A DNA stretch of 64,000 nt. It comes from Glaciihabitans sp. dw_435. GTDB taxonomy: Bacteria > Actinomycetota > Actinomycetes > Actinomycetales > Microbacteriaceae. The position numbers and the translations under genes were made by a program. The stretch covers positions 48,486-112,485 of the forward strand of contig NZ_JAAVUZ010000010.1 of NCBI RefSeq assembly GCF_018449675.1, in the 5' to 3' direction. This document shows positions 1 through 47,087 of the stretch, piece by piece. How positions within the stretch are numbered: the first letter of the stretch is position 1; each line of letters opens with the position of its first letter. The notes below the pieces were generated by a model that was not told where the DNA came from, ran no database searches, and saw nothing but the letters and a program-made list of their open reading frames with translations.

Positions 1-728
1 CTCGGATTGGAGAGTCCTTGGGTCTGCGATGGTCTTATGTCGATTTCGAGGCCGGTACCGTCGCTTTCGCCGCTGGAGTGAACCGTGTGAGGGGGAAAGG
101 CTTGGTCTTGCAGGAGTGGCTGAAGACAGATGGATCGACACGCACTATCAGTGTGCCTGCCGAGCTTCTCGACGTTCTCCGTGTGCGTCCGCGAATCAGC
201 GAGATGGTGTTCCCCTCGATGCTGGGGAAGCTCCGGGATACCTCCAATACAGAGGCCGACTGGAGAGCGAATCGAGATCGCTTGGGTTACCCGGGATTGA
301 CGAGTCATGCGTTCCGTAAGACAGTGGCCACAGCACTGGACGTTGCCGGACTGTCTGCGCGGGCGATTGCCGAATATCTTGGTCACAAGCAGCCGTCCAT
401 GACTCAAGACGTGTACATGTCACGCACCACTGGAAGCAGCGTTGCCGCATCCACTCTTAGCTCAATGTTCGGAGTAAGTTCGGAGTCATCCGCACCGCGA
501 ATCTCTGATCCCATACAAACAAAGGAAAGCGGTGGGCCCCGCGGGGCTCGAACCCGCGACCCGCGGATTATGGGTATGACGTTTCACGCGTGGTGTCGCT
601 TGACTTCTTCCGCGAGGAACATCGCGAGCTGGCTGCCGCGTAAGCGATCCTCACTTGGGTGTATATACACCCTGCCCAAAGGTATGTCTTTTAGGGGTAG
701 ACCGATAGGTCCATTAACTGGGGAGTAG
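1..728 (+). CDS. Tyrosine recombinase of an adjacent upstream element, C-terminal part with altered tail
   Basis: The gene enters from the left edge; its frame is open from base 3 (RIGESLGLRW...), so the N-terminal and core-binding parts are missing. Counting from the TTG at 18, the catalytic residues of the integrase family are visible: His97-x-x-Arg100 in SHAFRKT, His123 in LGHKQ and the nucleophile Tyr133 in DVYMSR. The frame then runs into the 3' half of tRNA-Lys, giving GGPRGARTRDPRI, the usual translation of an actinobacterial tRNA when an integrase gene abuts its attachment site. With an intact tRNA the protein would end ...RIKSPMLYQLS. Here the prophage replaces that end with an unrelated tail to 728. 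It belongs to another element that also used this tRNA-Lys. Whether it still works is unknown. Confidence 0.85.
   Translation, partial: RIGESLGLRWSYVDFEAGTVAFAAGVNRVRGKGLVLQEWLKTDGSTRTISVPAELLDVLRVRPRISEMVFPSMLGKLRDTSNTEADWRANRDRLGYPGLTSHAFRKTVATALDVAGLSARAIAEYLGHKQPSMTQDVYMSRTTGSSVAASTLSSMFGVSSESSAPRISDPIQTKESGGPRGARTRDPRIMGMTFHAWCRLTSSARNIASWLPRKRSSLGCIYTLPKGMSFRGRPIGPLTGE
533..570 (-). tRNA. 3' half of the split host tRNA-Lys(TTT)
   Basis: Read on the minus strand this is the end of the anticodon loop, the 3' anticodon stem, variable loop, T arm (GCGGG TTCGAGC CCCGC), acceptor strand GGGGCCC and discriminator A. The matching 5' half is at 47081-47121. Joined through GGATTA the two give a complete 73-nt tRNA-Lys with anticodon TTT and a pairing acceptor stem (GGGCCTC with GGGGCCC, one G-U). 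In the lysogen the halves are about 46.5 kb apart, so this copy cannot make a tRNA. Confidence 0.9.
565..570. other. attL core GGATTA
   Basis: GGATTA is the only sequence shared by the two prophage/host junctions (here and 47081-47086). To its left is host tRNA-Lys, to its right phage DNA starting TGGGTATGAC. In the rebuilt phage site, arms GTCACACCAA and TGGGTATGAC flank the core and are inverted repeats matching at 8 of 10 positions, as expected for integrase core-binding sites around a strand-exchange region. Confidence 0.85.
571..643 (+). other. Detached 3' end of the phage-form repressor gene, encoding a degradation tag
   Basis: When the prophage ends are joined at GGATTA, the repressor frame (…AAG GAT TA) continues here as TAT GGG TAT GAC and stays open for 24 codons to the TAA at 641-643. 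The encoded tail begins YGYDVS and ends HRELAAA. The small non-polar LAA/AAA end resembles the ssrA tag recognised by ClpXP. In the prophage this piece has no start codon in its frame and is probably not translated as part of any protein. The frame preservation is seen directly; the role as a degron is inferred from the mycobacteriophage BPs/Brujita systems. Confidence 0.85.
657..672. promoter_or_regulatory. 16-bp palindrome GGGTGTATATACACCC upstream of int
   Basis: A perfect palindrome between attL and the integrase start. Its central 14 bp (GGTGTATATACACC) recur exactly at 1957-1970 between two divergent ribbon-helix-helix genes. The form suits a dimeric RHH repressor operator. Its position means such a protein could control int or take part in the recombination complex. 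Confidence 0.65.
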
Positions 729-735
729 AACACTC

Positions 736-1668
736 GTGGTTCTGTATCTAGTGTCTGAAGGTATGAGCTGGAACGACGCTCTCCGTGACTTCGCGGCGTA
801 CCAGTACGCAGCAAACCTCTCCGAGAAGACAATAAAAAACCGTGAAGAAACACTCCGTCAATTGGAGCGACACTGTGGCGTGCCACCCCTTGAGGTGACG
901 ATCGCGCATCTGCGCCAAATGCTTTCCCGACCGCACCACCGAACCGGTGGCCGGCTGCAGCAGGGAACGATGCAGGCGGAGCGCTCGTACTATCAAACGT
1001 TCTTCAAATGGCTCGTCGAAGAGGGCTACTCGACAGCGGACCCGTCGGCTCGCCTGATGAAGATCAAAGTCGCCAGACGGAAAGCTCGCCCCCTCCGCGT
1101 CGACCAGATCGACAACATGGTCGACTCCGGTGCCTACGCGCGCACCCGCGACCTCATCACGCTCCTCGCGGCCACCGGGCTACGCATTGGAGAAGTCGTA
1201 AAGATCCGGGGGGAGGACGTGGACCGTGTCGCCATGATGCTCAGCACGACGCGGAAGGGTGGCCTGGAGCATCGCATCGCCCTGTCGCCGGCACTCCGGG
1301 AGCTGGTCGACCGATACCCGATGTCTGGCTGGTGGTTCCCCTCGCCCTACAGAAACAAGCTGTTCCCCGATGGGGGCGGTCACATTCTCATGGCATCCGC
1401 GAGCACTGTCGTCGCCGCGGCGATCAAGCGCGCCGGCATCACCGACGTCCGACTCACGGGCCACTCGCTGCGCCACTACTTTGCGACAACGCTGCTCCGG
1501 ATGGGCACCGACATCCGCGTCGTGCAGGAACTGATGGGCCACGCCTCACTCGCGACGACGCAGCTCTACCTCGAGGTCACCGACGAGGACATGCAGGACG
1601 GCGTGATCGTGATGCCCGTGCAGGCGGTTCGCGAGCACTCCGGCCGACGTGGCAGAATGGCGGCGTAG
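736..1668 (+). CDS. int: Prophage tyrosine integrase with a C-terminal ...RMAA end
   Basis: A 310-residue XerC/D-type integrase. The N-terminal SAM-like core-binding domain covers about residues 12-95 and the catalytic domain about 118-290. Catalytic residues are Arg150 (ATGLRIGE), His243-x-x-Arg246 (GHSLRHYF), His269 (LMGHAS) and Tyr278 (QLYLEV). The GTG start at 736 follows a GGGGAG ribosome site at 720-725. The last residues are GRRGRMAA; a terminal Ala-Ala tag makes BPs integrase a ClpXP substrate, so this may set Int lifetime. In phage DNA it lies just downstream of the repressor and attP. In the prophage it is cut off from that promoter and lies 165 bp inside attL. Confidence 0.95.
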   Translation: MVLYLVSEGMSWNDALRDFAAYQYAANLSEKTIKNREETLRQLERHCGVPPLEVTIAHLRQMLSRPHHRTGGRLQQGTMQAERSYYQTFFKWLVEEGYSTADPSARLMKIKVARRKARPLRVDQIDNMVDSGAYARTRDLITLLAATGLRIGEVVKIRGEDVDRVAMMLSTTRKGGLEHRIALSPALRELVDRYPMSGWWFPSPYRNKLFPDGGGHILMASASTVVAAAIKRAGITDVRLTGHSLRHYFATTLLRMGTDIRVVQELMGHASLATTQLYLEVTDEDMQDGVIVMPVQAVREHSGRRGRMAA

Positions 1669-1700
1669 CTCTTCCGGTATCCCCTGCTGGTTGAGTTCAC

Positions 1701-1773
1701 GGGCCGTTAGCTCAGTTGGTAGAGCATCAGACTTTTAATCTGCGGGTCCGGGGTTCGAGCCCCCGACGGCCCA
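1701..1773 (+). tRNA. tRNA-Lys(TTT), complete, prophage-borne
   Basis: A full 73-nt cloverleaf without encoded terminal A of CCA: acceptor GGGCCGT/ACGGCCC, D arm GCTC/GAGC, anticodon loop CTTTTAA, T arm CGGGG TTCGAGC CCCCG, discriminator A. It lies 32 bp after int and inside the prophage boundaries. It reads the same anticodon as the host tRNA gene that the prophage has split, but differs from it in the stems, so it is not an attachment-site duplication. At the integration core it has TAATCT where the host has TAATCC, which may stop it acting as a target. It is inferred to replace the lost tRNA. Confidence 0.95.
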
Positions 1774-1778
1774 CCGCA

Positions 1779-1928
1779 TCATTCCTCTTCGTCGACGTAT
1801 CGCTCGAGTGCTTCGCGGACAACGTCGGTCACTGTTCGCCCTTCGGCGATCGCCTTCTCCTGGGCAGCGCGATACAGGTCTTCCGGGATCCGGAAGCTGC
1901 GTGCGGGTGTCGCTGGCTGATTGGGCAC
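1779..1928 (-). CDS. Small ribbon-helix-helix protein (49 aa)
   Basis: The minus strand encodes a GTG-started protein containing RSFRIPEDLYRAAQEKA and TVTDVVREALERYVDEEE, the beta-strand and two helices of a CopG/Arc-type RHH domain, as in antitoxins and small repressors. It begins 6 bp after the tRNA-Lys in plus-strand order and is divergent from the gene at 1988. The palindrome at 1956-1971 lies between the two. No strong ribosome site is seen before the GTG, so the exact start is uncertain. No toxin gene is adjacent. Confidence 0.7.
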   Translation of the reverse strand: MPNQPATPARSFRIPEDLYRAAQEKAIAEGRTVTDVVREALERYVDEEE

Positions 1929-1955
1929 GCTGATATCGTGCCAGACCCCTTTTGC

Positions 1956-1971
1956 GGGTGTATATACACCT
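1956..1971. promoter_or_regulatory. Second copy of the GGTGTATATACACC palindrome
   Basis: GGGTGTATATACACCT contains the same 14-bp perfect palindrome found before int. It lies in the 59-bp gap between two divergent RHH genes and is a good candidate for their shared operator. Confidence 0.65.
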
Positions 1972-1987
1972 GATAGGTTCTACGCCC

Positions 1988-2158
1988 ATGACGGGCCTTG
2001 AGCCAGCGGAATCGGGCGGCGATCGCGAGGTGTTCGTCGACGCGGATCTGTATGCGCGTGCAGCTGCTCGCGCGGCCGCGCGGGGCGAGTCGGTGGAGGA
2101 CGTTGTTGCTCGTATTCTGGCGGAGTACTCCGGTGTTGCGGATCCGGCGGGGGAGTGA
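1988..2158 (+). CDS. Small RHH-like protein (56 aa)
   Basis: The ATG at 1988 follows the palindrome by 16 bp. The sequence REVFVDADLYARAAARAAARGESVEDVVARILAEY has the layout of a short strand, a helix and a turn-helix, as in the RHH family, and matches in style the divergent gene at 1779-1928. Either may be an auto-repressor acting at the palindrome, and the second copy of the site suggests an effect on int. Identification is by pattern only. Confidence 0.65.
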   Translation: MTGLEPAESGGDREVFVDADLYARAAARAAARGESVEDVVARILAEYSGVADPAGE

Positions 2159-2212
2159 GTCTCTCCCGTTTGGGGCGTGGCTGCTGGCTGGCGTCGTCGG
2201 TATGCTCCGACC

Positions 2213-2746
2213 ATGACCAACGTTGAACCATCAACCACTAGTGACCCTTCGATTCTGTGGGAAGCGGTGGGGCAGCCGTTGACTCGTATCGGTGCCGGCC
2301 GTTACAAGCTCACCGCCGACATCCTCTCGGCCGAGGTGGGCGTGGTGTCGATGCGTGGCCAGCAGATCGCAACGCACGAGATTCACGACGTCGACTTCAC
2401 GCAGGGAATGGCCCAGAAGATGCGCGGCGTCGGCACGATCGTGCTGACCGCTATCCGGTCGGTGGGGCGCGAGCAGATCTACCTGGAGGACGTCCCCAAC
2501 TTCCGTGAGGGCGTCCAGGCGATCAACACGGCCGCGCTCGGAGCGCGGGACTCGCTCCGCGTAAAGGAGCAGACCACCAACGTGAACCACGCCGGCACCG
2601 CGCCTGGAGTGCCTGTCATCGCAGCACCAGCTGCAGCGGCACCGGATTTCATGAGCGAGCTGGCCAAGCTGGCCGCGTTCCGCGATCAAGGCGTGCTGAC
2701 GGATGACGAGTTCACCGCGGCGAAGGCGAAGCTGCTCGGCCTGTAA
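2213..2746 (+). CDS. PH-like domain protein with C-terminal SHOCT domain (177 aa)
   Basis: Residues about 10-105 look like a bacterial PH-like domain (alternating strands, IATHEIHDVDFTQG). A Pro/Ala linker leads to a typical SHOCT end, FMSELAKLAAFRDQGVLTDDEFTAAKAKLLGL split over the last 33 residues. SHOCT is a short oligomerisation helix pair. The ATG at 2213 is chosen because upstream codons look non-coding. It is in the plus-strand block beside int, so it is probably made in the lysogen. A role in superinfection exclusion or host interaction is possible but unproven. Confidence 0.75.
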   Translation: MTNVEPSTTSDPSILWEAVGQPLTRIGAGRYKLTADILSAEVGVVSMRGQQIATHEIHDVDFTQGMAQKMRGVGTIVLTAIRSVGREQIYLEDVPNFREGVQAINTAALGARDSLRVKEQTTNVNHAGTAPGVPVIAAPAAAAPDFMSELAKLAAFRDQGVLTDDEFTAAKAKLLGL

Positions 2747-2862
2747 TGGATGAGGTGATCGCGCCGAACTGCCCGGAGTGCCTCGCGGCGCTCGAGGTGC
2801 TCGGCACGGTCGAGCACCCGTACTGGTGGTGCCCGGTGTGTAAGGTCGCCCGGTTGTCGTAA
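2746..2862 (+). CDS. Tiny zinc-ribbon protein (38 aa)
   Basis: The ATG overlaps the stop of the preceding gene (TAATG), so translation is probably coupled. The protein has CPECLAALE and WWCPVCKVA, two CxxC pairs about 24 residues apart, enough for one zinc ribbon. Function unknown. Confidence 0.65.
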   Translation: MDEVIAPNCPECLAALEVLGTVEHPYWWCPVCKVARLS

Positions 2863-2907
2863 CATCGTCAGCTGCAGGGCCGTGCTGCTTCGATCGTAGG
2901 AGTGTGC

Positions 2908-3210
2908 GTGGAAGGCTTTCACCGGTGGATTACCCCCTGGCCGATGATTCAGATCTCCGACTGTGAGTGGATCATCATGCGTGACGACCCGCGCAACCCC
3001 GCGGCGATCGTGCGTCGGCTGACGTTCGACGGGGAGACCTTCTATCGAATCGTGCGCTGGGCGCCGACCAGCGAGGGGCGGAAGCTGTTCGGCTACGTCC
3101 GCACTCTGGAGATCGCGGACATGTGCGTGACGTTCGTCAACGAGCCAGAGAAGACCGCTGGGCAGCTGTCACCTGATCGCCCAGGCGCGTGGGCCGACGG
3201 GCGCGCTTAA
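2908..3210 (+). CDS. Hypothetical prophage protein (100 aa)
   Basis: The GTG at 2908 follows a GGAG ribosome site at 2898-2902. The protein is rich in Trp and Arg near the N-terminus and mostly beta-strand in pattern (ICEWIIM, RRLTFDGETFYRIVRW-like stretches). No family is recognised. It is the last gene of the int-proximal block and is followed by a strong hairpin. Confidence 0.6.
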   Translation: MEGFHRWITPWPMIQISDCEWIIMRDDPRNPAAIVRRLTFDGETFYRIVRWAPTSEGRKLFGYVRTLEIADMCVTFVNEPEKTAGQLSPDRPGAWADGRA

Positions 3211-3215
3211 CGCAA

Positions 3216-3253
3216 AATGAACCCCCTCGCTGATGGCAGCGAGGGGGTTCATT
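3216..3253 (+). terminator. 17-bp perfect hairpin after the lysogeny block
   Basis: AATGAACCCCCTCGCTG pairs perfectly with its complement at 3237-3253 around an ATGG loop, 6 bp after a stop codon. It has no long T run, as is common in high-GC actinobacteria. Confidence 0.8.
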
Positions 3254-3349
3254 CGTTCCGGATCCAACCTTATCCCGTCCCGTCCAAGTTGCGCTAGCGC
3301 AACCATCCGTGCTACTTTGGGTTTACAAACAACGGAGGGGGTGATAACA

Positions 3350-3547
3350 ATGGGTAAAGAACTAGCCAAGATCTTCAAGGCAGCTGAGGCGCAGGGCTTC
3401 ACAGTCAGCCGTACCAAGAGCAATCACTACACGGTCTACAAAGACGGTGCACGAGTGACAACGTTCGCGGGAACGGCAAGCGACCAGCGCAGCATCAAGA
3501 ACGGTCTGGCCTACATGCGACGGGCAGGATTCATCTGGCCCCCGTAA
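3350..3547 (+). CDS. HicA-like small protein (65 aa)
   Basis: The protein MGKELAKIFKAAEAQGFT... with SNHYTVYKDG has the HicA fold pattern: a helix, strands and a central His followed by basic residues. HicA toxins are mRNA interferases with a double-stranded-RNA-binding fold, and the His is catalytic. A strong GGAGGGGG ribosome site lies 8-16 bp upstream. The next gene is an HTH protein rather than a typical HicB, so the two may form a divergent toxin/antitoxin pair or be unrelated. Confidence 0.65.
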   Translation: MGKELAKIFKAAEAQGFTVSRTKSNHYTVYKDGARVTTFAGTASDQRSIKNGLAYMRRAGFIWPP

Positions 3548-3554
3548 ACAGCTA

Positions 3555-3591
3555 AGCGGGCCGGAGACACTCCAATTGTCTCCGGCCCGCT
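3555..3591 (+). terminator. 15-bp hairpin between the HicA-like and HTH genes
   Basis: AGCGGGCCGGAGACA pairs with its exact complement at 3577-3591 around a 7-nt loop, starting 8 bp after the stop codon. It may limit read-through from the HicA-like gene into the next gene. Confidence 0.75.
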
Positions 3592-3621
3592 ACACCCACA
3601 GTAAGACGAAAGGCCCATCCC

Positions 3622-4158
3622 ATGGAATACAACGCACGAATCGAATTCGCCGAACGCGACAGCGACGATGCCGCTGACCGCCTCGTCACCGCGCTCGAAC
3701 CGTTCAGCCCCGCCGCCGGCGTCTCCGTTGACGGACATCTCGAAGTGGTCATCACCCTGTACGCTGCGGACGTGCGCCAGGCCACGGCGAGCGCGTTGGC
3801 GCTGGCTGGGGAAGCGTCGACGTCTGACGTCTTGGCGCTCGAGGTAATGACGACGGCCGCGTTCGATCGTCGTCGTGAGCTCACCCCCATGCCGGAGCTG
3901 GTCGACGCTACTGGCGCGGCCGAGATTCTCGGCATCAGCCGGCAGGCAGTCGGGAAGAAGCTCGACGCCGGTCAGTTGCCGGGGCGGCGCATCGGGGAGA
4001 GGGGCATGGCGTTTCCGCGTGCCGATCTTGAACGGATTGCGCTGATCCGTGGCTCACGTTTCGAGGAGGCTGCCGACCGGCTGGTTGACGCCCTGCGCGA
4101 CATTCAGGCGGTGAAGGGTCACTCGACGCAGGAGGAGTATCTCGACCCGCGCAACTAA
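3622..4158 (+). CDS. HTH DNA-binding protein (178 aa)
   Basis: Residues about 1-75 resemble an alpha/beta domain with repeated Ala-rich helices. Residues about 90-140 (VDATGAAEILGISRQAVGKKLDAGQLPGRRIGERGMAFPRADLERI) form a MerR/excisionase-type helix-turn-helix with wing. It follows a HicA-like gene, so it could be the regulatory antitoxin of that pair, but the N-terminal domain is not a clear HicB. It ends facing the late genes at a bidirectional terminator. Confidence 0.7.
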   Translation: MEYNARIEFAERDSDDAADRLVTALEPFSPAAGVSVDGHLEVVITLYAADVRQATASALALAGEASTSDVLALEVMTTAAFDRRRELTPMPELVDATGAAEILGISRQAVGKKLDAGQLPGRRIGERGMAFPRADLERIALIRGSRFEEAADRLVDALRDIQAVKGHSTQEEYLDPRN

Positions 4159-4164
4159 CGCAAA

Positions 4165-4211
4165 AAAGGCCCCGGCCTGGCACCTCGTGAGAGGACCAGG
4201 CCGGGGCCTTT
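4165..4211. terminator. Bidirectional terminator between lysogeny genes and the late operon
   Basis: AAAGGCCCCGGCCTGG pairs with its exact complement at 4196-4211 around a 15-nt loop. Runs of A on the left and T on the right give a T tract in either direction. It separates the convergent genes ending at 4158 (plus) and 4226 (minus). Confidence 0.85.
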
Positions 4212-4225
4212 GCTTTGCGGTGGTG

Positions 4226-4828
4226 CTATCGGGGCGGGTACCCGACGGATGTTGAGTTATCTGCCGCGCCTTCGAATCGCCATCCGGGGGTTCGGCCGTC
4301 GGCAAAGTCGGGGATAGTCAGGCCCGGCGTCAGCTGCGCTTTGGTCGCGTAGGCGGTTCCGTCTGGGCCGCTGTCGGCGAAGATGCGGACGCGCGCGAAC
4401 ACAGCGTTGGAGGGCGCCTTCGCTGCGGCCGAACCGAACTGTGTCCACACCCCCGGCTGCACAATGACAGTGCCGCCGGCAGCAGTACTCATTGCGCCCC
4501 GGCCCGCGGCGAGGAGCAGCGTTCCCGCGGAGTCGTGGAAACTCATATCGACGTTGAGCGTCATCCCCGCCGTGATGCTGGCCCAGACCGACGCGCGATA
4601 GTTCTGGCCGGGAACCACGGGCAGATTGATGCTCGATTGCGTGAGCACCAGCGCACCCGATACGCGCACGAACTGCAGGCCTGGTATCCCCAGCCCTGGG
4701 ACGCTGGGGTTGGCCGTGCATCCAGCGGTTACCGCCCAGTTTGCCAGTGGGGCGGATGCGGCGAAACGTCCGTTGAAACACGAGTTCCGGTACGGCTGCG
4801 CCCCTTGGTCGACCGTCGCCGACCTCAT
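4226..4828 (-). CDS. Fibre-like or carbohydrate-binding virion protein, distal copy (200 aa)
   Basis: It is paralogous to the next gene: both start MRSA, contain a beta-sandwich pattern like that of carbohydrate-binding modules and end with ...DG..P.WR(F/Y)...S.GYPP. Such modules usually sit at the tail tip and bind the host surface. ATG 4828 is chosen by alignment with the paralogue, with GGGAG upstream. It is the last gene of the late operon. Confidence 0.65.
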   Translation of the reverse strand: MRSATVDQGAQPYRNSCFNGRFAASAPLANWAVTAGCTANPSVPGLGIPGLQFVRVSGALVLTQSSINLPVVPGQNYRASVWASITAGMTLNVDMSFHDSAGTLLLAAGRGAMSTAAGGTVIVQPGVWTQFGSAAAKAPSNAVFARVRIFADSGPDGTAYATKAQLTPGLTIPDFADGRTPGWRFEGAADNSTSVGYPPR

Positions 4829-4868
4829 GCGGCCAGCTCCCACGCTGATCGAACGTAACGATCGTCAA

Positions 4869-5492
4869 CTAAGCGGGGGGGGGGGGGTAACCAATGCTCG
4901 GGCCGCTGTTGCCGTTGAGGTACCGCCACTTGGGCATCGCTCCGTCGGAGAACGGGTACAGGTTCGAGCCTTCAGTGACCATGGCTCCGGCGATGTCGAA
5001 CGTGTCGTTCACTCCGAACGCTACGGCTGCGTTCCCGAATAACAGGTCCATCCGGAGCTGGGCCGCCTCTGCAGGCGAGGTAGTGATGATGGACAGGCGC
5101 GCCCACTGGTTGGGAATCAACGTCACATCGGGCGCGTCGAAAGTCCAGCCGGCGCTGGCGGCCGCGTTCAGATACTGCGCCCGGCACCGGAGCGATTGCG
5201 CGACGCTGCTCCGGCACCAGTAGGACATCGCGTATCGGATGGCCGGGCGGACCAAAGCCGTCAAGTTTCCATCCGCGATTATGAGTCCCACACCCGCTGC
5301 ACCTGGTGTCCCAGCCGCGGTGTTGACCCGGCGCGCTGCGACGCCGTAAGGGGTGCCGGTGAGCAGCGAGGCTGTCGCATTTCCCCCGCCGGCGGTGAGC
5401 GGGACGAACCAGCCGTCATAGCTGGTGGAGGGGTGCGACCTGGCCAGGTTGATGATTGGCTGCGCCCGGGATTCCAGAATGGCGCTACGCAT
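4869..5492 (-). CDS. Fibre-like or carbohydrate-binding virion protein, proximal copy (207 aa)
   Basis: Paralogue of the downstream gene, with a shared MRSA start and a shared C-terminal DG..PKWRYLNGNSGPSIGYPP element. A 13-base C run on the coding strand makes the PPPP just before the stop. With one extra C the frame would instead run on to a TGA overlapping the ATG of the downstream gene. Its start overlaps the preceding gene by 8 bp. Confidence 0.7.
   Translation of the reverse strand: MRSAILESRAQPIINLARSHPSTSYDGWFVPLTAGGGNATASLLTGTPYGVAARRVNTAAGTPGAAGVGLIIADGNLTALVRPAIRYAMSYWCRSSVAQSLRCRAQYLNAAASAGWTFDAPDVTLIPNQWARLSIITTSPAEAAQLRMDLLFGNAAVAFGVNDTFDIAGAMVTEGSNLYPFSDGAMPKWRYLNGNSGPSIGYPPPPA
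4875..4887. repeat. G13/C13 homopolymer at the end of a tail-fibre-like gene
   Basis: Thirteen consecutive G on the plus strand (C on the coding strand) code for the last four prolines of the gene at 4869-5492. Tracts of this length slip readily in replication and in sequencing. Slippage would change the gene end and its coupling to the next gene. Confidence 0.85.
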
Positions 5493-5733
5493 CGAATGTC
5501 TCCACCTTCATCGGCGCGGGCCAGGGAACCAGGTGTGTGAGATCGGTCTCCGTATCGTCACGAACCTCGCCGAGAGCGGCGAGTACTTCGAGGGTTGGCG
5601 CGAGGGCCTGCACTCGGTAGGCCACGACGACGGTGGGGTCCGCGGCCGCGGCGAGAGGCTCGATGCTGCCGACGGATGCGCCGGCGGCGATGATGCGCGC
5701 GATCGCGTCGTCGCGTCGTTCTTCGGGAGTCAT
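5485..5733 (-). CDS. Small tail-region protein (82 aa)
   Basis: Begins MTPEERRDDAIARIIAAGASVGSIEPLAAAAD and is mostly helical, with an acidic end. It sits between a collar/tip protein and the fibre genes, overlapping the latter by 8 bp. No family recognised; probably a virion or chaperone protein. Confidence 0.6.
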   Translation of the reverse strand: MTPEERRDDAIARIIAAGASVGSIEPLAAAADPTVVVAYRVQALAPTLEVLAALGEVRDDTETDLTHLVPWPAPMKVETFDA

Positions 5734-5735
5734 GC

Positions 5736-6545: not shown

Positions 6546-6554
6546 CGGGGATCC

Positions 6555-6626
6555 TTACTGGCAGCTATCGCATTGCAGGTCGTCCATCGGATCTACCGGG
6601 ACGTCGTACTCTTCGGTGGGATCCAC
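6555..6626 (-). CDS. Possible 23-aa peptide ending CDSCQ
   Basis: A GTG-started frame of 23 residues (acidic, ...DLQCDSCQ) fills the gap between two late genes. The CxxC and the tight packing make it plausible. The ribosome site is weak and nothing proves expression. Confidence 0.35.
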   Translation of the reverse strand: MDPTEEYDVPVDPMDDLQCDSCQ

Positions 6627-6632
6627 CAGGTG

Positions 6633-7004: not shown

Positions 7005-7008
7005 GGTG

Positions 7009-40447: not shown

Positions 40448-40472
40448 GGCTGGTCGGCCTTTCTTGGGTGGG

Positions 40473-40820: not shown

Positions 40821-41812
40821 GCGGACACCTGCTCGCGGTGGTGGTCGAAGTTCGCCGGCAGTTTCAGCTCGCGCCGGATCCGGAGTGAGGTCTGCACATC
40901 GAAGTGGAGGCGGGCGGCGATAGCGTGGTCGCTCAGCTTCATCGCGTGAAGGCGAGTGACGGCGACTCGGCGTTCCGTGCTTGTGAGGGAGACGTCGATT
41001 CCCTTGCAGGCGAGTTCAACAGCAATCTCGTCGATGACTGGGTTGCCGTCCTCGTCGACTTTGACCGGCTTGTCAGCCTTCGCTGGCTTCTCGTCGTTGT
41101 CGATGTCATCCCAGGCGATCGCGGGAACGGCGCCGCGGCGTTTTGCCGCCAAGATGGTGCGTGCCGATCCGTGGCGCGCAGCGTCCGTGTGGTGAACGGG
41201 TGTTTGATTCCAGAGTTCGTCGTGGAGTGCGACGATTCGGCGCGCCATCTTGGCCGTCACTTTGGTGGCGACGTTCACGCGGGACAGGGCAGATGACCGC
41301 ATTCCCAGGTGGTCGCACAGCTGTCGTTGTGACCATCCTTTGAGAGCGAGGTCATCAAGTCGGCGACGCGTGCCGAGCGCGGAGATCTGTGTTCCGGGGG
41401 CGAGGGCGTCGAGAGTGGGGCGAACCGAGAGGATCGCTTCCGAATTTTGCCGGAGCATCTGTTTCTTGGGCTTGTGGTGGCGCGGTCCGGGAACACCATT
41501 GATGTAGTGCGTGTGCCCGACGAGCAGCGTCACGACGATGTGGACGTTGATGCCTGCGTGCTTGGCGATGGTCTCGGGGCCCATGCCGAACGCCTGAAGC
41601 ATGAGGGCGTGTTGGCGGGCGTCGTCGGCGGGAACATATCCGCTGTCGTAGGTGCCGTAGGCAATCTGGCGGCGGCGCAGCGCTTCGCGTGCTGTTCCAG
41701 CCTCGCGGCATGGCGTGCAACCACACCGGTGGGTGTGGTAGCAGAGGGCAGTCGCACCGTGCTCGTGATCGTCGGGGCACACTGCACGGGGACGGGTGGT
41801 GGTGTTAGTCAT
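40817..41812 (-). CDS. HTH phage protein with N-terminal Cys/His cluster (331 aa)
   Basis: CPDDHEHGATALCYHTHRCG followed by CTPC gives a zinc-site pattern common in actinobacterial DNA-binding proteins. Two HTH-like segments follow (GMGPETIAKHAGINVHIV and KGWSQRQLCDHLGMRSSALS). Probably a regulator or replication factor. ATG 41812 overlaps the previous stop. Confidence 0.6.
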   Translation of the reverse strand: MTNTTTRPRAVCPDDHEHGATALCYHTHRCGCTPCREAGTAREALRRRQIAYGTYDSGYVPADDARQHALMLQAFGMGPETIAKHAGINVHIVVTLLVGHTHYINGVPGPRHHKPKKQMLRQNSEAILSVRPTLDALAPGTQISALGTRRRLDDLALKGWSQRQLCDHLGMRSSALSRVNVATKVTAKMARRIVALHDELWNQTPVHHTDAARHGSARTILAAKRRGAVPAIAWDDIDNDEKPAKADKPVKVDEDGNPVIDEIAVELACKGIDVSLTSTERRVAVTRLHAMKLSDHAIAARLHFDVQTSLRIRRELKLPANFDHHREQVSA

Positions 41813-42168
41813 CGCGTGGTCTCCTGGTCGAGTTCGCGTTCGATGGTTTTGTCGAACCAGTGGATGGGGCGCCACACGCCGGCGTCGTGGCCGGCGTTGG
41901 TGAGCGCGGCGAGCCAGATGTTCTGCGCCTTGCTGGTCTTGCCCTTCATCGTTTTGAGCTCACGGAAGAGCGAACGACGTCGGGTGGTGTGCACGAGGTG
42001 AAGGTCGGGGTAGCCGGCCTGTGAGCGGCGCGAATCGTGCGTGTGGTAGACGAGGAAGCCGCGGCGTTCGGCGGCGGCGATGACCACGTCCTGGAACTGC
42101 TTCTCGCTCATCGTCTCTGCCTGCATCGCGTGGTATTCAGCGAGGCTGATGCTCATGGGAAGGCTCAT
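41809..42168 (-). CDS. VRR-NUC domain nuclease (119 aa)
   Basis: SEKQFQDVVIAAAERRGFLV, SQAGYPDLHLVH and LFRELKTMKGKTSKAQ give the Glu, Asp and Glu-x-Lys of the VRR-NUC family (PDL...ELK). Phage members act as Holliday-junction or replication-intermediate nucleases. Complete. Confidence 0.85.
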   Translation of the reverse strand: MSLPMSISLAEYHAMQAETMSEKQFQDVVIAAAERRGFLVYHTHDSRRSQAGYPDLHLVHTTRRRSLFRELKTMKGKTSKAQNIWLAALTNAGHDAGVWRPIHWFDKTIERELDQETTR

Positions 42169-42515
42169 TTGCCGGTCTCGATATCGATGTAGCGGATCAG
42201 TTCGCGGATCCGGCCGGTGTGCCCACAGACCAGGCGCACGGGGTTGGTGATCGCTAGGGCTTCGTTGCGGTGGGTGGTGCACACGTAGGGGATCCGGCGG
42301 GCTACCTCGGTGCACGGGTGAACGACGAGCCATTGTGCTGGGTTCTGGCATTCGCCGACTTGGGTGTCGGAGGCGGTTGCGTCGGTTCCGTACTCGCAGT
42401 TCAGCGGAACGACCCAGTCGAGGTCATGGATGATCTTGTTCCGGAGAGCCATCGATGCCTGGTTATGCACGGCGTCGAGCATTGCGTTGAGGTCGAGAGG
42501 TTCTTCGGTGGGCAT
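42165..42515 (-). CDS. Hypothetical Cys-containing early protein (116 aa)
   Basis: Starts MPTEEPLDLNAMLDAVHNQA. Cys and His residues are spaced through the second half (CEYG, GECQNP, HPCTEV, VCTTHR, LVCGH), possibly one zinc site. Coupled to VRR-NUC by overlap. Confidence 0.6.
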   Translation of the reverse strand: MPTEEPLDLNAMLDAVHNQASMALRNKIIHDLDWVVPLNCEYGTDATASDTQVGECQNPAQWLVVHPCTEVARRIPYVCTTHRNEALAITNPVRLVCGHTGRIRELIRYIDIETGK

Positions 42516-42889
42516 CAGATCACGTGTCCGATCGGCTTGATGGTGCCGAGCGGGACCATGACTGGCTTGCGGCCCGGCGTTCCGTCGAGCTCGTCCTGCC
42601 GGCAGGCGTCGCAGGGTTTCGGGTAGTGCTCGTGGGTGGCGCACATGCTCGCCTCGAGCGGCGTTGCTGCAGCGCGAGCTTGGCGGGTGCGCTTGACGAT
42701 CGCGACCAGGTGCGCCGGCGTGACGTACTCCGTGCTCGAGCGGCGGTGTTCGGTGAGCGCGGCCGAGAGGTCGGAGTACTCGAAGTCCTGGAGGATCTGG
42801 TGCCAGGCGACGATGGCGGGATCGGAGACGATCCGGTTATCGATCGCTGATGCCACGATCAAGAGCTGCGCGGTTTGCATCTCGTTCAT
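42515..42889 (-). CDS. Helicase-loader-like or replication accessory protein (124 aa)
   Basis: Helical MQTAQLLIVASAIDNRIVSD followed by AIVAWHQILQDFEYSDLSAA resembles the N-terminal domain of phage replicative helicase loaders. A C-terminal CATHEHYPKPCDAC adds a Cys cluster. It overlaps the replication initiator-like gene by 53 bp. Function inferred from context. Confidence 0.55.
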   Translation of the reverse strand: MNEMQTAQLLIVASAIDNRIVSDPAIVAWHQILQDFEYSDLSAALTEHRRSSTEYVTPAHLVAIVKRTRQARAAATPLEASMCATHEHYPKPCDACRQDELDGTPGRKPVMVPLGTIKPIGHVI

Positions 42890-43718
42890 CGGATTCTCCG
42901 TATCTGGCTTGGAAGTTGGCGTAAGCGATTTCGGCATTGGTGAGATGCCGTTGCGGCGGAGATGGTGGTGTGCCCGGCGCCGGTAGTTCGTCGTTCCACC
43001 GCTCACCGTTGAGCCAGGTCGCGGCGTGGGGCGTCTTGTCGAGCGGGCGGTGCTCGACGGTGTCCCAATGGCGGGCGGCGGCGACGGCCGCGGCGACGAT
43101 GCGAACGTGCAGCTCGGCGGCGGCCGGGGCCGGCAGCTTGGTGAGGATCCGGTCGTAGACCTTGCGGGCGGTGAGGCGTTCGACCTTGCGCGGCCACACC
43201 TTCCAGAACTCGTCGAAGAGAGCGTCGACGGAGGCAATCTGAGGTGCTTCCTCATCCTCGATGAGGGTAAGTATTTGTTCTTTTCTTAAAGAGTTCTTAA
43301 TAGACAGAACATTGGGGATATTCGCCCGGTCCTGTGGTGTGTTTTCGCCCGGTCCATTGGGGATATTCGCCCGGTCGACTGGGTTGGTATCGATCAGTGG
43401 TCGGTAGCTCTTGGCACGGTCGAAGTTTCCGCCCAGACGGTGCTCCTCGGTGTCGATGAATTCATTCGTAACCAGGTGCTTGATGGCGTGCTTGACCTGC
43501 TCGGCGGAGAGCCCGGTCTCGGTGGCGATGTCCTCGCGGGTTGCTGGCCACCACACGTTGCCCTGTGCGTCGACGTGGGTGAGCGCGTTGGTGGTAGAGC
43601 AGCGGAACTGGATGCGCGTCCAGACGAGGGCGTTATTCGCCCCTCCGAGGGTCTTGACGAGGGCCGCTCTGACCATGATGAAGTCAGAAGCGGTTACCTC
43701 GTGCTGTGGTACGCCTGT
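42837..43718 (-). CDS. Replication initiator-like winged-helix protein (293 aa)
   Basis: Residues about 25-105 (ALVWTRIQFRCSTTNAL, then EDIATETGLSAEQVKHAIKHLV) form a winged helix like phage replisome organisers. The C-terminal part (DEFWKVWPRKVERLTARKVY) matches the DnaD/DnaT-like end used to recruit helicase. The GTG start overlaps the previous TGA. Within a compact early operon. Confidence 0.75.
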   Translation of the reverse strand, partial: TGVPQHEVTASDFIMVRAALVKTLGGANNALVWTRIQFRCSTTNALTHVDAQGNVWWPATREDIATETGLSAEQVKHAIKHLVTNEFIDTEEHRLGGNFDRAKSYRPLIDTNPVDRANIPNGPGENTPQDRANIPNVLSIKNSLRKEQILTLIEDEEAPQIASVDALFDEFWKVWPRKVERLTARKVYDRILTKLPAPAAAELHVRIVAAAVAAARHWDTVEHRPLDKTPHAATWLNGERWNDELPAPGTPPSPPQRHLTNAEIAYANFQARYGESDERDANRAALDRGISDR

Positions 43719-43948
43719 CACTTGCCGTAAACCTTTCGTAGTGCGAATCGCATAGCGTCGTTCCACTTTGCGAAGTAGATGTTTTTCTGTCGGAGGCGGA
43801 GGTCGGCCATCACGTGGTCTTCGACCGGGGTGGCGAACCATGCCATCGGGTTGTGGCCCGGTTCCTTGGCGACCCTCCAGCGGTCCTCACGGGTCGCGTC
43901 ACGCTTCGGCTGGTACTGCCGGGCGTAGGCGCGCGGTGGGGTGCTCAC
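43718..43948 (-). CDS. Hypothetical early protein (76 aa)
   Basis: Basic and aromatic; contains MAWFATPVEDHVMADLRLRQ. Its stop overlaps the replication gene start. No family recognised. Confidence 0.55.
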   Translation of the reverse strand: MSTPPRAYARQYQPKRDATREDRWRVAKEPGHNPMAWFATPVEDHVMADLRLRQKNIYFAKWNDAMRFALRKVYGK

Positions 43949-43952
43949 GGGG

Positions 43953-44951
43953 TCAGCCGCCGACGACGATGGTGATGGTCATGCGGGCGCCGGGTAGATC
44001 GATCACGTGTGCGGGTGTGGTGAGGTCTTCGACGTCGTTGGCGTTCTGCTGGCGAAGGCGCTTGTTTTCCGCTTTCAGTTCCCCGGATCGCATGCGCCAG
44101 TGGGCGAGTTCCTCGCGCAGCTCGGTGAGTTCGTCGGGGGTGACGCCTGCCACCAGGTTCTTTACGGTGCGGGCCTCCGCGTACAAGTGCGGCTCGAGGT
44201 CGATGTCTGGCCACGGCTCGTTGATGGCCGAGTCCCAAAGGTCCTGCGACAGCATTGGAGCTGCGACGTTTGAGAGCGCAGTGGCCATCACTGCATCGAG
44301 CGGGTGGGCAGACGCCACGTCGAACTGCTCAGCGGTGAATGCGCGGGGGGCTTCTTCGTCCGAGTCGGCCACGGGCGTAGGTTCCACGGCTTCCGTTGCG
44401 ATTGTGGTTTCGACGACAGCCGCAGCCTCAGCGATTGCGAGCTGCTCGGCTTCCCGGAGCTTCTTGGCCTGGTTCCGTTCCCTTGCCGCGCGAGAGGTTG
44501 CCTCGCGGCATTCGGGCCGGCGGCAGCCAGATGCGTAGTGACTGCGCAGCTGGGCGTCGGTGGCGGTTTCGTGATTGAACTCGGCGATGGCCGGCTCTGC
44601 GGTGGGCGCGGGCTCAGGGGCGGGTGGGGTGGGCTTGGGCGCCGTAACCGGTGCTGACGCGACCGCGACCTCTTTCAGGACTGCGGCCGGCTTGGGGTCG
44701 GCAGGAATGGGGGTGGGCTTCTCTACGCGGCTCTTGGCAAGCTTGGGCACGGGGGCGACGGTAGGTCGTTCGAAGCGGTGGCTGCTGGGCAGCTTGGCGG
44801 CGTTGTAGTCACCGCGACGGAGCATGGATGCCTCGACGCAAGTGAGGTACGTCGTTGAGCCGTGGTAGAGGCACTGTGCTGCACCCTTGCAGCCCTGGTC
44901 ATACCCGTTGGCGGTGCCGTGGGGGAAGTCGTCGGCATAGAGGTCTTTCAT
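43953..44951 (-). CDS. Early protein with HGTxNGY...GC motif and coiled-coil end (332 aa)
   Basis: The N-terminal DDFPHGTANGYDQGCKGAAQ and the middle HYASGCRRPECREA both resemble the 'HGT..GY..GCRC..C' DNA-binding signature common in actinobacterial phages. A Pro/Ala linker follows. The C-terminus has a coiled coil (TELREELAHWRMRSGELKAE). Possibly DNA-binding. Confidence 0.6.
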   Translation of the reverse strand: MKDLYADDFPHGTANGYDQGCKGAAQCLYHGSTTYLTCVEASMLRRGDYNAAKLPSSHRFERPTVAPVPKLAKSRVEKPTPIPADPKPAAVLKEVAVASAPVTAPKPTPPAPEPAPTAEPAIAEFNHETATDAQLRSHYASGCRRPECREATSRAARERNQAKKLREAEQLAIAEAAAVVETTIATEAVEPTPVADSDEEAPRAFTAEQFDVASAHPLDAVMATALSNVAAPMLSQDLWDSAINEPWPDIDLEPHLYAEARTVKNLVAGVTPDELTELREELAHWRMRSGELKAENKRLRQQNANDVEDLTTPAHVIDLPGARMTITIVVGG

Positions 44952-44963
44952 GGTGGAGGACTC

Positions 44964-45203
44964 CTAACGGTTGATGCGTGAGCAGCGCGGGCAGAATGCG
45001 GTCTGCTCGCTGTAGTTCTCGGCGGTGTTGGTGAAGAACGCCCAGCCGAGCTGCACGAGCTGGGCGGATGCGGCGGTCGGGGTCTTGGCGTGAACCGCTT
45101 GGGTCTCTCCGCACAAGAGGCAGAACACCGCGTGGGTTTCGTCGGCGATCATGTCTTCCCAGTGCGCGCGTGGTGGTGCGTCGACCTGGTCGCTATCGGT
45201 CAC
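44964..45203 (-). CDS. Zinc-ribbon-like early protein (79 aa)
   Basis: CLLCGETQAV and FCPRCSRINR form two CxxC pairs about 43 residues apart. It sits in the early operon with coupled neighbours. Function unknown. Confidence 0.6.
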   Translation of the reverse strand: MTDSDQVDAPPRAHWEDMIADETHAVFCLLCGETQAVHAKTPTAASAQLVQLGWAFFTNTAENYSEQTAFCPRCSRINR

Positions 45204-45397
45204 TAGGACCGGCTCGTTTTGCGAGAGATAGCGACCAGGAGGAGCACCAGCAGAAGGCTTGAGATCCCGGCGAGTGGGAGCGCATCTGCGGTCATGGCCT
45301 GGACTCGTGAGAGCGAGTACCAGATGAACAGGAGGAGGGCGGTGAAGAGGGTTCCGCGCACGACGGTGCGGAGCTTGAGGGCGAGGTGGTTACGCAT
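45203..45397 (-). CDS. Small membrane protein (64 aa)
   Basis: Two hydrophobic segments (about 15-32 and 41-57) with a positively charged N-terminus. It lies between the anti-repressor-like gene and a zinc-ribbon gene, overlapping both slightly. Confidence 0.55.
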   Translation of the reverse strand: MRNHLALKLRTVVRGTLFTALLLFIWYSLSRVQAMTADALPLAGISSLLLVLLLVAISRKTSRS

Positions 45398-46133
45398 CGG
45401 TGGTCGGCTCCAACAGGGTCAGTGGTGATGGTGTGGTGAGGTCGAGAGTTGCGACGCCGCCGAGCTGGCGGTGGAGTTCGTGCATGCCGCTGTGGGTGAT
45501 GCGGATCTGCGGGTAGGCGGTGAGGGTCTTACCGCGGTAGACGGCGACCTGCTGGCGGGCAAGGAAGCCGGCGGCGAGGGGTTCGGGCTTTGGTACCCAG
45601 ACGTCATTGGGGCCGCGCTCAATCCAGTTGAGGCTGCGACGCATGACATAGAAGAGGCTGTCGCGGCCGTACTGCAGGACGGGGTCGCGTGAGAGGAGTC
45701 CCGCTGCGCGGCGGACGGAGAAGGTGTCGCCGGCGATGAGTTCGGCGGCGGCGGGTTCGCGAGCGATCTTGAGCTCGGTGACGTTAGTGTCGTTGAGCGC
45801 GGCGAGCAGCCCCTCGAAGAATTCGAGGAAAGCGTCGGTGAAGTCCTGCGCGTTGGCGTAGGCGAGCTCGCGCACCTGGTCGGCGGTGTAGAGCTTCTGC
45901 AGGGGGGCGTCGCCGTCGGGCGAGTCGCGGACGTCGGGCAGCGTCACGGGATGCCCGGGGTAGCGGTTGATGACGGGGTGCCAGTGGGTCTCGCGCGTGT
46001 AGGGCACTTTGATGTTGAGTGCAGTGCAAATGTCGTTGGCGAAGAACAGGACGCCGTCGGGGGCGTCGGTGATGGCGCGCAGATCTATCCCATACCCGCG
46101 CCAGCGGAAAGGGACGATCGGTCGGCGGGCCAT
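45390..46133 (-). CDS. Phage anti-repressor-like protein with KilAC/ANT end (247 aa)
   Basis: The N-terminal part (GIDLRAITDAPDGVLFFAND) resembles a Bro-N fold. Residues about 140-235 (ELIAGDTFSVRRAAGLLSRD, VYRGKTLTAYPQIRITHSG) match the KilA-C/ANT anti-repressor domain. In related phages this counteracts the repressor to promote lytic growth, but the partner is not shown here. ATG 46133 is chosen over 46142. Confidence 0.85.
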   Translation of the reverse strand: MARRPIVPFRWRGYGIDLRAITDAPDGVLFFANDICTALNIKVPYTRETHWHPVINRYPGHPVTLPDVRDSPDGDAPLQKLYTADQVRELAYANAQDFTDAFLEFFEGLLAALNDTNVTELKIAREPAAAELIAGDTFSVRRAAGLLSRDPVLQYGRDSLFYVMRRSLNWIERGPNDVWVPKPEPLAAGFLARQQVAVYRGKTLTAYPQIRITHSGMHELHRQLGGVATLDLTTPSPLTLLEPTTDA

Positions 46134-46138
46134 GGTGA

Positions 46139-46246
46139 TCACTGGAGCCCGTTGTCGCGGGCGAACCGCACGAGGCGAATGATGATGAGACCAACGCCCG
46201 CGGCGAGCGCGATGGCGATCGCGGAAATGAGGATGTCGGTGGTCAT
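46139..46246 (-). CDS. Tiny membrane protein (35 aa)
   Basis: MTTDILISAIAIALAAGVGL followed by IIIRLVRFARDNGLQ: one membrane helix and a basic tail. It fits between coupled genes. Expression is unproven. Confidence 0.45.
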   Translation of the reverse strand: MTTDILISAIAIALAAGVGLIIIRLVRFARDNGLQ

Positions 46247-46449
46247 CGGGTGCCGCCGTGGGGTGTGGTGTTGAGCGCGGGGACTGCCAGCACTGCAGTC
46301 CCCGCGCTCGGTGCCACCGGTGGGCGCTGGGAAGCTGCAGCGCGCTTTGGGCCGGTGGTCTCTCCTGCGCTGGGTGTCTCTAGCACCTGTGTGGGGACGG
46401 CAGGAGAAGTGTTTGCGTGGTGCCTGGCGGCGGCGATGGGCGCGTTCAT
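46243..46449 (-). CDS. Pro/Ala-rich early protein (68 aa)
   Basis: The ATG overlaps the TGA of the Cro/Xis-like gene (ATGA), so translation is probably coupled. The sequence is of low complexity (Ala, Pro, Thr). No fold can be predicted. Confidence 0.45.
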   Translation of the reverse strand: MNAPIAAARHHANTSPAVPTQVLETPSAGETTGPKRAAASQRPPVAPSAGTAVLAVPALNTTPHGGTR

Positions 46450-46661
46450 GCGACTGACTCGGCATCTGCGAGGTCGTTGATCGTTTTCTTGAGGGCGGCG
46501 ACTACTTCGGGGTCGAAGAACATTTCGCCGGTGGCGCCGCTTCCCCGGAGTTCCGGGGTGATCTTCTCGGATTTGACCCACCGGGTGAGGGTGGAGCGGT
46601 CAATGCCGAGCTCATCGGCGGTCTTTGCCGATCCGATCAGGGGTGTTTTGCGAGGTGCCAT
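46446..46661 (-). CDS. Cro- or Xis-like HTH protein divergent from the repressor (71 aa)
   Basis: MAPRKTPLIGSAKTADELGI, STLTRWVKSEKITPELRGSG and FFDPEVVAALKKTI show a MerR/excisionase-type winged HTH. As first gene of the lytic early operon, divergent from the repressor across a 135-bp operator region, it takes the place of Cro (or Xis) in BPs-like phages. ATG 46661 is chosen; upstream codons run into the operators. Confidence 0.75.
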   Translation of the reverse strand: MAPRKTPLIGSAKTADELGIDRSTLTRWVKSEKITPELRGSGATGEMFFDPEVVAALKKTINDLADAESVA

Positions 46662-46744
46662 GTGGTGAACGATTCCACAATGCACAACGTATTGCAAACC
46701 TGAATATTTGGGTCGTGCCCAATTAGTCCTAAAATAGATGCATG

Positions 46745-46790
46745 AGCTTTTGCGTTACGGATTGCATTTCGCAAAAGCTTGTGCGAAGCT
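46745..46790. promoter_or_regulatory. Cluster of palindromic operators between repressor and Cro-like genes
   Basis: AGCTTTTGCG (46745-46754) and its exact complement CGCAAAAGCT (46770-46779) form a 10-bp inverted repeat. Overlapping it, 46768-46787 is a near-perfect 20-bp palindrome (TTCGCA...TGCGAA), and 46776-46790 is AGCTT-gtgcg-AAGCT. Half-sites like TTGCG/TTGCA also occur toward 46710. These suit binding by dimers of the repressor and Cro-like protein and lie just upstream of the repressor ATG. Confidence 0.65.
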
Positions 46791-46796
46791 CAGGTT

Positions 46797-47087
46797 ATGT
46801 CAATCGCATACGACGACCTCGCCAGCAAGCTTTCGTTCGGTCTCCCCGACCGCTTGGGGAAGGCCCTTCACGTCGCCGACGTGACCACCACGGACATGGC
46901 CGACTACTTAGGTGTGACGCGCAACACGATTAGCAACTACACCAGCGGTCGCACTCCCGTGAAGAAGCAGACGCTCCGCCTATGGGCGTTGAAGACCGGC
47001 GTTCCACTTGAGTGGATCGAGACCGGTGAGATTGGCGAGACTTCGCCGAGCGGGCCTGGTGGAGTCAAAAGTCACACCAAGGATTAA
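46797..47087 (+). CDS. Immunity repressor, prophage (truncated, presumably stable) form, 96 aa
   Basis: Residues about 29-60 (TTDMADYLGVTRNTISNYTS) are an XRE-type helix-turn-helix. ATG 46797 is preferred; a TTG at 46779 lies in the operator. The prophage frame ends SHTKD-TAA, where AAG-GAT-TA is phage/core and the last A of the stop (47087) is host tRNA. In circular phage DNA the same frame runs 24 residues further to 643 and ends RELAAA, giving 120 residues. By analogy with BPs and Brujita, the long form is degraded and only the integrated form gives immunity. The direction places it just before attP and int. Confidence 0.9.
   Translation: MSIAYDDLASKLSFGLPDRLGKALHVADVTTTDMADYLGVTRNTISNYTSGRTPVKKQTLRLWALKTGVPLEWIETGEIGETSPSGPGGVKSHTKD
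47081..47086. other. attR core GGATTA
   Basis: Same six bases as attL. To its left is phage DNA (GTCACACCAA), to its right host tRNA-Lys. It overlaps the end of the repressor gene. The host base that follows turns TAT (phage) into the TAA stop. Confidence 0.9.

Follow-up and report, generated by a model that had tools for sequence, protein, structure and literature searches.

The DNA analysed here (the window, 64,000 nucleotides of Glaciihabitans sp. dw_435, family Microbacteriaceae; positions 48,486 to 112,485 of contig NZ_JAAVUZ010000010.1) contains a prophage integrated in a host transfer RNA (tRNA) gene, and the present work deals with the cassette found at its two ends: a repressor gene at the right end and, at the left end, a tyrosine integrase gene (int) followed by a tRNA gene (Table 1). 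The left and right ends of the prophage have six base pairs in common, GGATTA, and host tRNA DNA is found from 47087 onward. The repressor open reading frame (ORF) runs into the right-hand copy of this core, where it ends ...KSHTKD and is closed by a stop codon composed of two core bases and one base of the host tRNA gene. When the two ends are joined as in the predicted circular phage DNA, 24 codons are added to the frame, giving ...KSHTKD-YGYDVSRVVSLDFFREEHRELAAA with the C-terminus RELAAA, and the repressor comprises 120 residues as against 96 in the integrated form. The phage attachment site (attP), as deduced from the joined prophage ends, thus falls inside the repressor ORF, and int starts 92 bp past the stop codon of the viral tail. 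An initial annotation of the window, made from its letters, had given both the repressor coordinates and this join; the former hold exactly, and the latter was reproduced with the same open frame, tail and lengths.

Table 1. Features of the repressor–integrase cassette and its junctions, in window coordinates
Feature	Position	Strand	Remarks
3' half of split host tRNA-Lys(TTT)	531..570	-	ARAGORN on empty-site join
Shared core GGATTA, left junction	565..570		identical to 47081-47086
Viral-form repressor tail	571..643	+	join of 47086 to 571; TAA 641-643; relatives have the same layout
Tyrosine integrase, 310 residues, ends GRMAA	736..1668	+	GTG 736, ATG 763 also possible; Pfam Phage_integrase 1e-28
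Prophage-borne complete tRNA-Lys(TTT)	1701..1775	+	sole ARAGORN tRNA in the window, 32 bp behind int
Divergent small Cro/Xis-like gene opposite repressor	46446..46697	-	phrog_66 excisionase and transcriptional regulator, 8e-5
Candidate operator, 15-nt inverted repeat (46740-46754 / 46770-46784)	46740..46784		87% complementary; between the divergent genes
Repressor gene, integrated form, 96 residues, helix-turn-helix (CI-like)	46797..47087	+	ATG 46797; stop TAA 47085-47087, last base (47087) host
Shared core GGATTA, right junction	47081..47086		identical to 565-570
5' half of split host tRNA-Lys(TTT)	47087..47121	-	ARAGORN none; RF00005 33.1 bits over chimera 47051-47121

The crossover point lies in the anticodon loop of the host tRNA-Lys(TTT) gene. 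Joining the host parts as in the empty site (531-570 plus 47087-47121, minus strand) yields an intact 75-base tRNA-Lys(TTT) by ARAGORN; the same program calls no tRNA at the attP join and none at either prophage junction, and the phage DNA does not rebuild the host tRNA. The complete tRNA-Lys(TTT) gene behind int and the host gene agree at 65 of 75 positions. The initial annotation had missed that the host tRNA is lost, not rebuilt, and that a prophage copy replaces it. A full tRNA census of the window's genome (assembly of 50 contigs, 99.99% complete) gave 47 matches to RF00005, and ARAGORN typing recognizes one tRNA-Lys(CTT) and one intact tRNA-Lys(TTT), the latter being that of the prophage. 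In a second genome of the genus (G052) the tRNA-Lys(TTT) is intact and stands beside the same host gene, while a third (G122) gave short matches only. AAA codons are present in three of the six host ORFs and in all nine phage ORFs counted, and a CTT anticodon is not expected to read them; since the only intact tRNA-Lys(TTT) is that of the prophage, the lysogen should depend on it. In a lysogen with int silent, transcription of the prophage tRNA would be expected.

The repressor matches the transcriptional repressors of PHROG phrog_2328 (6e-21) as well as Pfam HTH_3 and Phage_CI_repr, and shares 46% identity over residues 1-91 with cluster P repressors, such as those of Fishburne and Phegasus. 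The best phage matches of the integrase reach 33-35% (Butters/Kevin1, Arthrobacter phages such as Cole, and Charlie and its kin), with 34% identity to the Charlie integrase. The RELAAA end of the viral repressor is ssrA-like by resemblance of sequence: the host transfer-messenger RNA (tmRNA) tag, ADSKRTDFALAA, ends ALAA, to be compared with ELAAA. Prophage reading frames that are open for at least 10 codons end in A in 10.0% of cases, in AA in 1.26% and in AA preceded by L, V, I, M, F or A in 0.61%. Because 1.26% of background frames end in AA, the tail of the window taken alone is only suggestive, and the comparative evidence weighs most. The junctions, both repressor frames, the loss of the host tRNA, the spare tRNA and the AA-ended integrase are all read directly from the DNA.

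Relatives among prophages and free phages

Of 299 genomes from the host family, 24 contain a homologue of the repressor, counting the window's genome. Of the 25 repressor matches outside the window's genome, 17 were pursued, one of them (G062) having too little contig; the eight left aside (two in G250 and one each in G178, G275, G292, G279, G086 and G257) lie on short contigs or at contig ends, or lack a called tRNA where the repressor ends. In 16 of the 17, the core recurs at most 1 kb upstream of an integrase, corresponding to the order repressor-attP-int; for 15 of these, ARAGORN recognizes the host tRNA next to the end of the repressor as intact (Arg-ACG, Lys-CTT, Thr-CGT, Thr-TGT or Asn-GTT). 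The layout is thus common in the wider family. In the sixteenth relative, G270, the host gene for tRNA-Arg(TCT) is interrupted without being rebuilt, and a tRNA-Arg(TCT) stands directly behind int; its repressor ends ..GRPRD in the chromosome and ..GRPRDYMAAVSRPVRVMRLQSIGAAA when joined, and its integrase ends GRRRAA.

An alignment of three integrases (window, G270 and Arthrobacter phage Cole) served as the query for a search of named genomes and IMG/VR, in which 39 genome loci and nine viral loci were found; 27 of these (18 and nine, respectively) were scanned, the 21 weaker ones being omitted. Viral contigs scanned with only the repressor yielded no relatives, whereas the integrase alignment did find them. 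Next to int there is a tRNA-Lys(TTT) in Leifsonia aquatica H1aii and in one viral record (a provirus with host flanks), and a tRNA-Arg(TCT) in Cryobacterium fucosi, Glaciibacter superstes, Rathayibacter, Microcella and Arthrobacter. Twelve prophages combine a cut repressor, a split host tRNA and a phage tRNA, and several of the closest relatives in this combined layout belong to the Microbacteriaceae. With the predicted end of the viral tail in brackets, they are the window (LAAA), G300 from Leifsonia (RRSA), the viral record G307 (LVGA), G270 (GAAA), G302 from Cryobacterium (RQAA), G303 from Glaciibacter (AAHA), G304 from Rathayibacter (RPAA), G306 from Microcella (GRAR), and G308 (EIAA), G310 (EIAA), G311 (RKTA) and G312 (RKTA) from Arthrobacter. 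Eleven of these tails end in A and six in AA, and the integrase ends in AA in all but G306 (11/12).

A helix-turn-helix (HTH) ORF that ends ..D, with a TAA or TAG completed by host tRNA DNA, was found in 11 of the 12, the HTH match being weak in G300 (below the Pfam cut-off) and G270 being assigned by homology. In the twelfth, G302, the repressor contig stops at the core with ..TMD, and another contig ends in the 5' half of the host tRNA. The repressors are of two types, PHROG 2328 and PHROG 4583, and are cut at the same residue. For G300, G302, G304, G310 and G311, whose ends lie on different contigs, membership in one prophage is presumed. A tRNA of the same isotype stands beside int in all 12 (11 by ARAGORN; that of G308, in which two bases are masked, by pattern only). 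At the right junction (attR), ARAGORN calls no tRNA in any of the eight Arg-type genomes in which this junction is in sequence, and a TCT-anticodon pattern matches nothing in these genomes besides the split host half and the prophage copy. Extra tandem copies of the tRNA-Arg 3' half are found just outside the left junction (attL) in G270 and at L180:5390-5510, as other elements may have left if they had used the same tRNA.

The long repressor is uncut in all seven Arthrobacter phage records examined (Cole, Ryan, Nandita, Popper, Zaheer, Gusanita and QuinnAvery) and in four of nine viral-contig loci, the other five being one prophage of the combined kind and four loci that begin at int. These uncut repressors end RKAA, RKTA, ETAA, EVAA or EIAA, and where prophage G310 has the cut form ..RPPLD, its free relatives read on as ..PLDYKV.... 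Judging from the shared core and from the prophages, attP presumably lies inside the repressor of the Arthrobacter phages as well. The reading of the junction as a switch, put forward in the initial annotation, is supported by both sets of relatives: the repressor ORF is cut at the split host tRNA in ten of eleven related prophages, the eleventh being sequenced only up to that point, and the long form is uncut in related free phages. In all seven phage records, a tRNA-Arg(tct) is annotated in the vicinity of int, as is a second tyrosine integrase; the two integrases flank or neighbour the tRNA-Arg(TCT) (loci L012 and L221-L226), several of these phages carry a second HTH gene at this place, and the arrangement perhaps represents a second, rival switch. 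QuinnAvery forms lysogens, and the accessible portion of its description gives the tRNA no role (PMC13097055).

The Arthrobacter group also provided a set in which constraint on the tail could be assessed, made up of 15 tails (14 of them distinct) from seven phages, four viral contigs and four prophages. In the tail codons, the proportion of nonsynonymous differences (pN) is lower than that of synonymous differences (pS) in 90 of 91 pairs, the median ratio of nonsynonymous to synonymous rates (dN/dS) is 0.42 in the 87 usable pairs, and variation is greatest at third codon positions. Because pN lies below pS and third positions vary most, the tail appears to be maintained as a protein in this group.

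In a tree of 45 integrases, those that carry a tRNA fall into two clades, Lys and Arg. The Lys clade comprises the window, Leifsonia and the viral record, plus one locus (L165) without a tRNA, and the Arg clade includes two Arthrobacter rows without a tRNA nearby. Four changes of tRNA label are needed on the tree, at least three of them forced by well-supported branches; since the fork between the two clades is open, one origin and two origins are indistinguishable.

Proposed switch and competing explanations

The arrangement described above argues that integration is likely to stabilize the repressor and that the prophage tRNA-Lys(TTT) is likely to keep the cell alive. We infer degradation, immunity and tRNA dependence in the window by analogy, the repressor step being modelled on BPs (PMC4557955) and the tRNA step on Fionnbharth (PMC10865867). 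In free phage DNA, the 120-residue repressor would be made and then degraded via its ssrA-like end, probably by ClpXP, and there would be no immunity. The integrase, if it escapes its own turnover, would recombine attP with the host tRNA gene, and this single event would remove the tag, complete the stop codon with the first host base and make the repressor stable. The same integration would remove the only host tRNA for AAA codons, so that the lysogen would survive only if the phage tRNA is expressed. As the phage brings a whole tRNA, the 3' end of the repressor gene need not also serve as half of a tRNA, and the repressor would thereby become exchangeable. A form of addiction is predicted, in which loss of the prophage other than by exact excision should kill the cell; and since isolated Arthrobacter phages, one of them reported as lysogenic, carry the same parts, the model is testable in a laboratory strain.

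Several observations weigh against this proposal. The AA end is not general in the wider family, since only three of the joined tails of the 16 relatives end in AA (seven end in A), and the integrases of these relatives end in AA in five cases. The excess of such tails over background gives binomial values of 1e-3 and 5e-4 when kinship is ignored, and these are not independent tests, as the rows share ancestry. In G033, the viral form of the repressor is shorter than the prophage form. Within the combined kind, neither the tail nor the integrase of G306 ends in A, and two Lys-type tails end RRSA and LVGA; the Lys-clade locus L165 (Lacisediminihabitans profunda, integrase 58% identical) has no tRNA, tRNA half or site nearby and no AA end. 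As regards the tRNA, a consensus search of window positions 540-1900 found no sigma-70-like promoter upstream of the prophage copy, and the attR chimera on the minus strand exceeds the RF00005 cut-off of 29 bits, so that some residual tRNA function of this chimera is possible. Finally, further, divergent TCT tRNAs may exist in the eight Arg-type genomes mentioned above, because the TCT-anticodon pattern overlooks the known prophage tRNA of G302, which is itself divergent.

The competing explanation that survives best, unlikely as it is, holds that the switch is real and non-proteolytic, with the tail blocking oligomerization or operator binding until it is removed. Such a mechanism would accommodate the relatives that share the layout without AA ends, and the AA end is likewise not general among M. 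abscessus prophages, for which systems without it have been reported (PMC8092301). The tails of the combined group, however, vary in length and sequence and yet end in A in all but one case, and in BPs the two lengths of gp33 are alike in their binding to operator DNA (PMC4557955).

A slightly less likely explanation concerns the other half of the proposal: the chimeric tRNA at attR would still function, the prophage tRNA would be a luxury, and there would be no tRNA dependence. In its favour, the chimera reaches 33.1 bits against a gathering score of 29 and forms six of seven acceptor pairs. On the other side, ARAGORN does not recognize the chimera as a tRNA, the Rfam alignment shows five non-standard stem pairs, the crude pairing score is equalled at 6.5% of window positions and the acceptor match at 1.4%, and in G307 and G300 no tRNA is called at attR and at most five and four acceptor pairs, respectively, can be formed. 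The same 33.1-bit match had prompted the idea that the repressor contains a decayed tRNA half, the relic of a core that once rebuilt the tRNA; it was dropped as evidence because of these two crude null comparisons and the weaker pairing in G307 and G300.

It is improbable that the tail beyond attP is simply DNA required by the integrase, with an AA-ended frame by coincidence and two repressor forms of equal properties. Any site beside int would be conserved for recombination, AA-ended frames make up 1.26% of the background, and 13 of the 16 family relatives lack AA. Against a coincidence of this kind stand the constraint at the protein level in the 15 Arthrobacter-group tails, the retention in these tails of the frame, of an initial DYKV and of a final AA or TA even though the repressor bodies differ, and the AA-ended integrases of the combined group.

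Beyond the cassette, the prophage has recognizable genes for terminase, portal, protease, major head protein, tape measure, helicase and a ParB-like protein, and the Cro/Xis-like gene and the inverted repeat listed in Table 1 complete, as far as their sequences allow such a reading, the usual layout of a switch. The segment 1699-1773, which corresponds to the prophage tRNA-Lys, has a match of 89% identity over 75 bp in a Listeria phage record that lacks annotation. To the left lies a second prophage of about 39 kb (G000:C2:10018-49055), whose right end is found at window positions 1-570 and which has 41 bp of the tRNA-Lys 3' half repeated on either side. The window prophage occupies the tRNA on the right of this neighbour, the two forming a tandem pair at one tRNA. 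The adjoining position and the repeated tRNA half led to the consideration that both form one composite element with misassigned ends, which is highly improbable and was rejected, as the neighbour has its own terminase, portal, head, tape-measure and helicase genes, as the repressor joined to the neighbour's far end meets an immediate stop (TAG) with no open tail, and as the int-tRNA cassette lies at 736-1775, where it does in sister elements.

Relation to known systems

Integration-dependent immunity (IDI) was reportedly described by Broussard in 2013 for the mycobacteriophages BPs, Brujita and Charlie and for clusters G, N and P. The window shares with these phages an attP in the 3' end of the repressor gene, a junction stop codon completed by host DNA, a tRNA gene as bacterial attachment site (attB) and AA-like ends on a homologous repressor and a homologous integrase. 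As far as sequence can tell, the initial annotation's proposal of an IDI-type switch is thereby supported. The compared ends are NELAA for the repressor and VSAA for the integrase of Fishburne, LAA and DAA for Ewald, AAA and SAA for Savbucketdawg, HAA and WAA for Rahul, SAA and AVS for Charlie, and HRA for the repressor of BlueFeather. In BPs, the 136-residue form of gp33 is degraded and the 103-residue form is stable (PMC4557955). The order repressor-attP-int, pointed out in the initial annotation, is the usual one in IDI and constitutes no difference (PMC4557955, PMC9262239). To the initial annotation the phage had looked otherwise unrelated; the cassette is not, since its repressor and integrase are homologous to those of cluster P and Charlie, although megablast of the first 25 kb of the prophage against 50,697 phage records gave one match, the tRNA gene. 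The main difference lies in the core, which in IDI phages is about 35 bp long and keeps the tRNA intact; a review states that, for the tRNA to survive, its 3' end has to be part of the core within the repressor (PMC9262239). In the window, by contrast, the core measures 6 bp, the host tRNA is in two parts and a tRNA of the phage takes its place, which represents an alternative to the tRNA-preserving core and recurs with two tRNA isotypes and several repressors.

Descriptions of IDI exist for Mycobacterium, Gordonia and Bifidobacterium, and a claim of it has been made for a serine-integrase phage of Streptomyces. For Microbacteriaceae, no description was found in the literature searched, which left most subscription papers outside it, and the view that such a switch had not been described in this host group holds within that scope; IDI and tRNA-dependent lysogeny are each known, and within the same literature their combination in one element was not found described. 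The Arthrobacter phage Galaxy has been likened to IDI phages, but with attP outside the repressor and no recognizable tag (PMC5513430). The Arthrobacter cluster FF phages resemble the window in their related integrase, the nearby tRNA-Arg(TCT) and a long repressor ending in AA or TA, and differ in the genes between repressor and int and in the second tyrosine integrase (7/7). The cluster name comes from the QuinnAvery paper, whose accessible portion gives no attP or repressor (PMC13097055), and membership of the other six phages is assumed from likeness.

The nearest precedent is found in the tandem M. abscessus prophages prophiT36-2a/2b (PMC9934374), in which both members show IDI, the tRNA-Thr at one of the junctions is impaired and the tRNA-Thr of the partner is proposed to compensate. 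There, however, two prophages share the work and two acceptor positions are unpaired, whereas in the window a single element cuts the tRNA in two. The tRNA-dependent lysogeny of Fionnbharth, BrutonGaster, Gaia and other phages (PMC10865867, mBio 2024) is alike in the split host tRNA-Lys(TTT), the phage tRNA of the same isotype and the tyrosine integrase, with a core of 8-17 bp as compared with 6 in the window, and a tRNA-defective mutant of Fionnbharth gives clear plaques. It differs in that the accessible text names IDI as a separate system and lists the phages of its Table 2 without a stated attP in the repressor and without a tRNA-Arg site.

It is probable, judging from the sequences compared, that a phage lineage of the Micrococcales fuses both systems. 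One crossover in an anticodon loop would untag the repressor and destroy an essential tRNA that only the prophage replaces; immunity and dependence would start together, exact excision would be the safe way out, and repressors would be swappable. Since both modes occur among related integrases, this lineage bears on the question left open in the 2024 paper, namely how tRNA-dependent integration is related to integration that rebuilds the tRNA.

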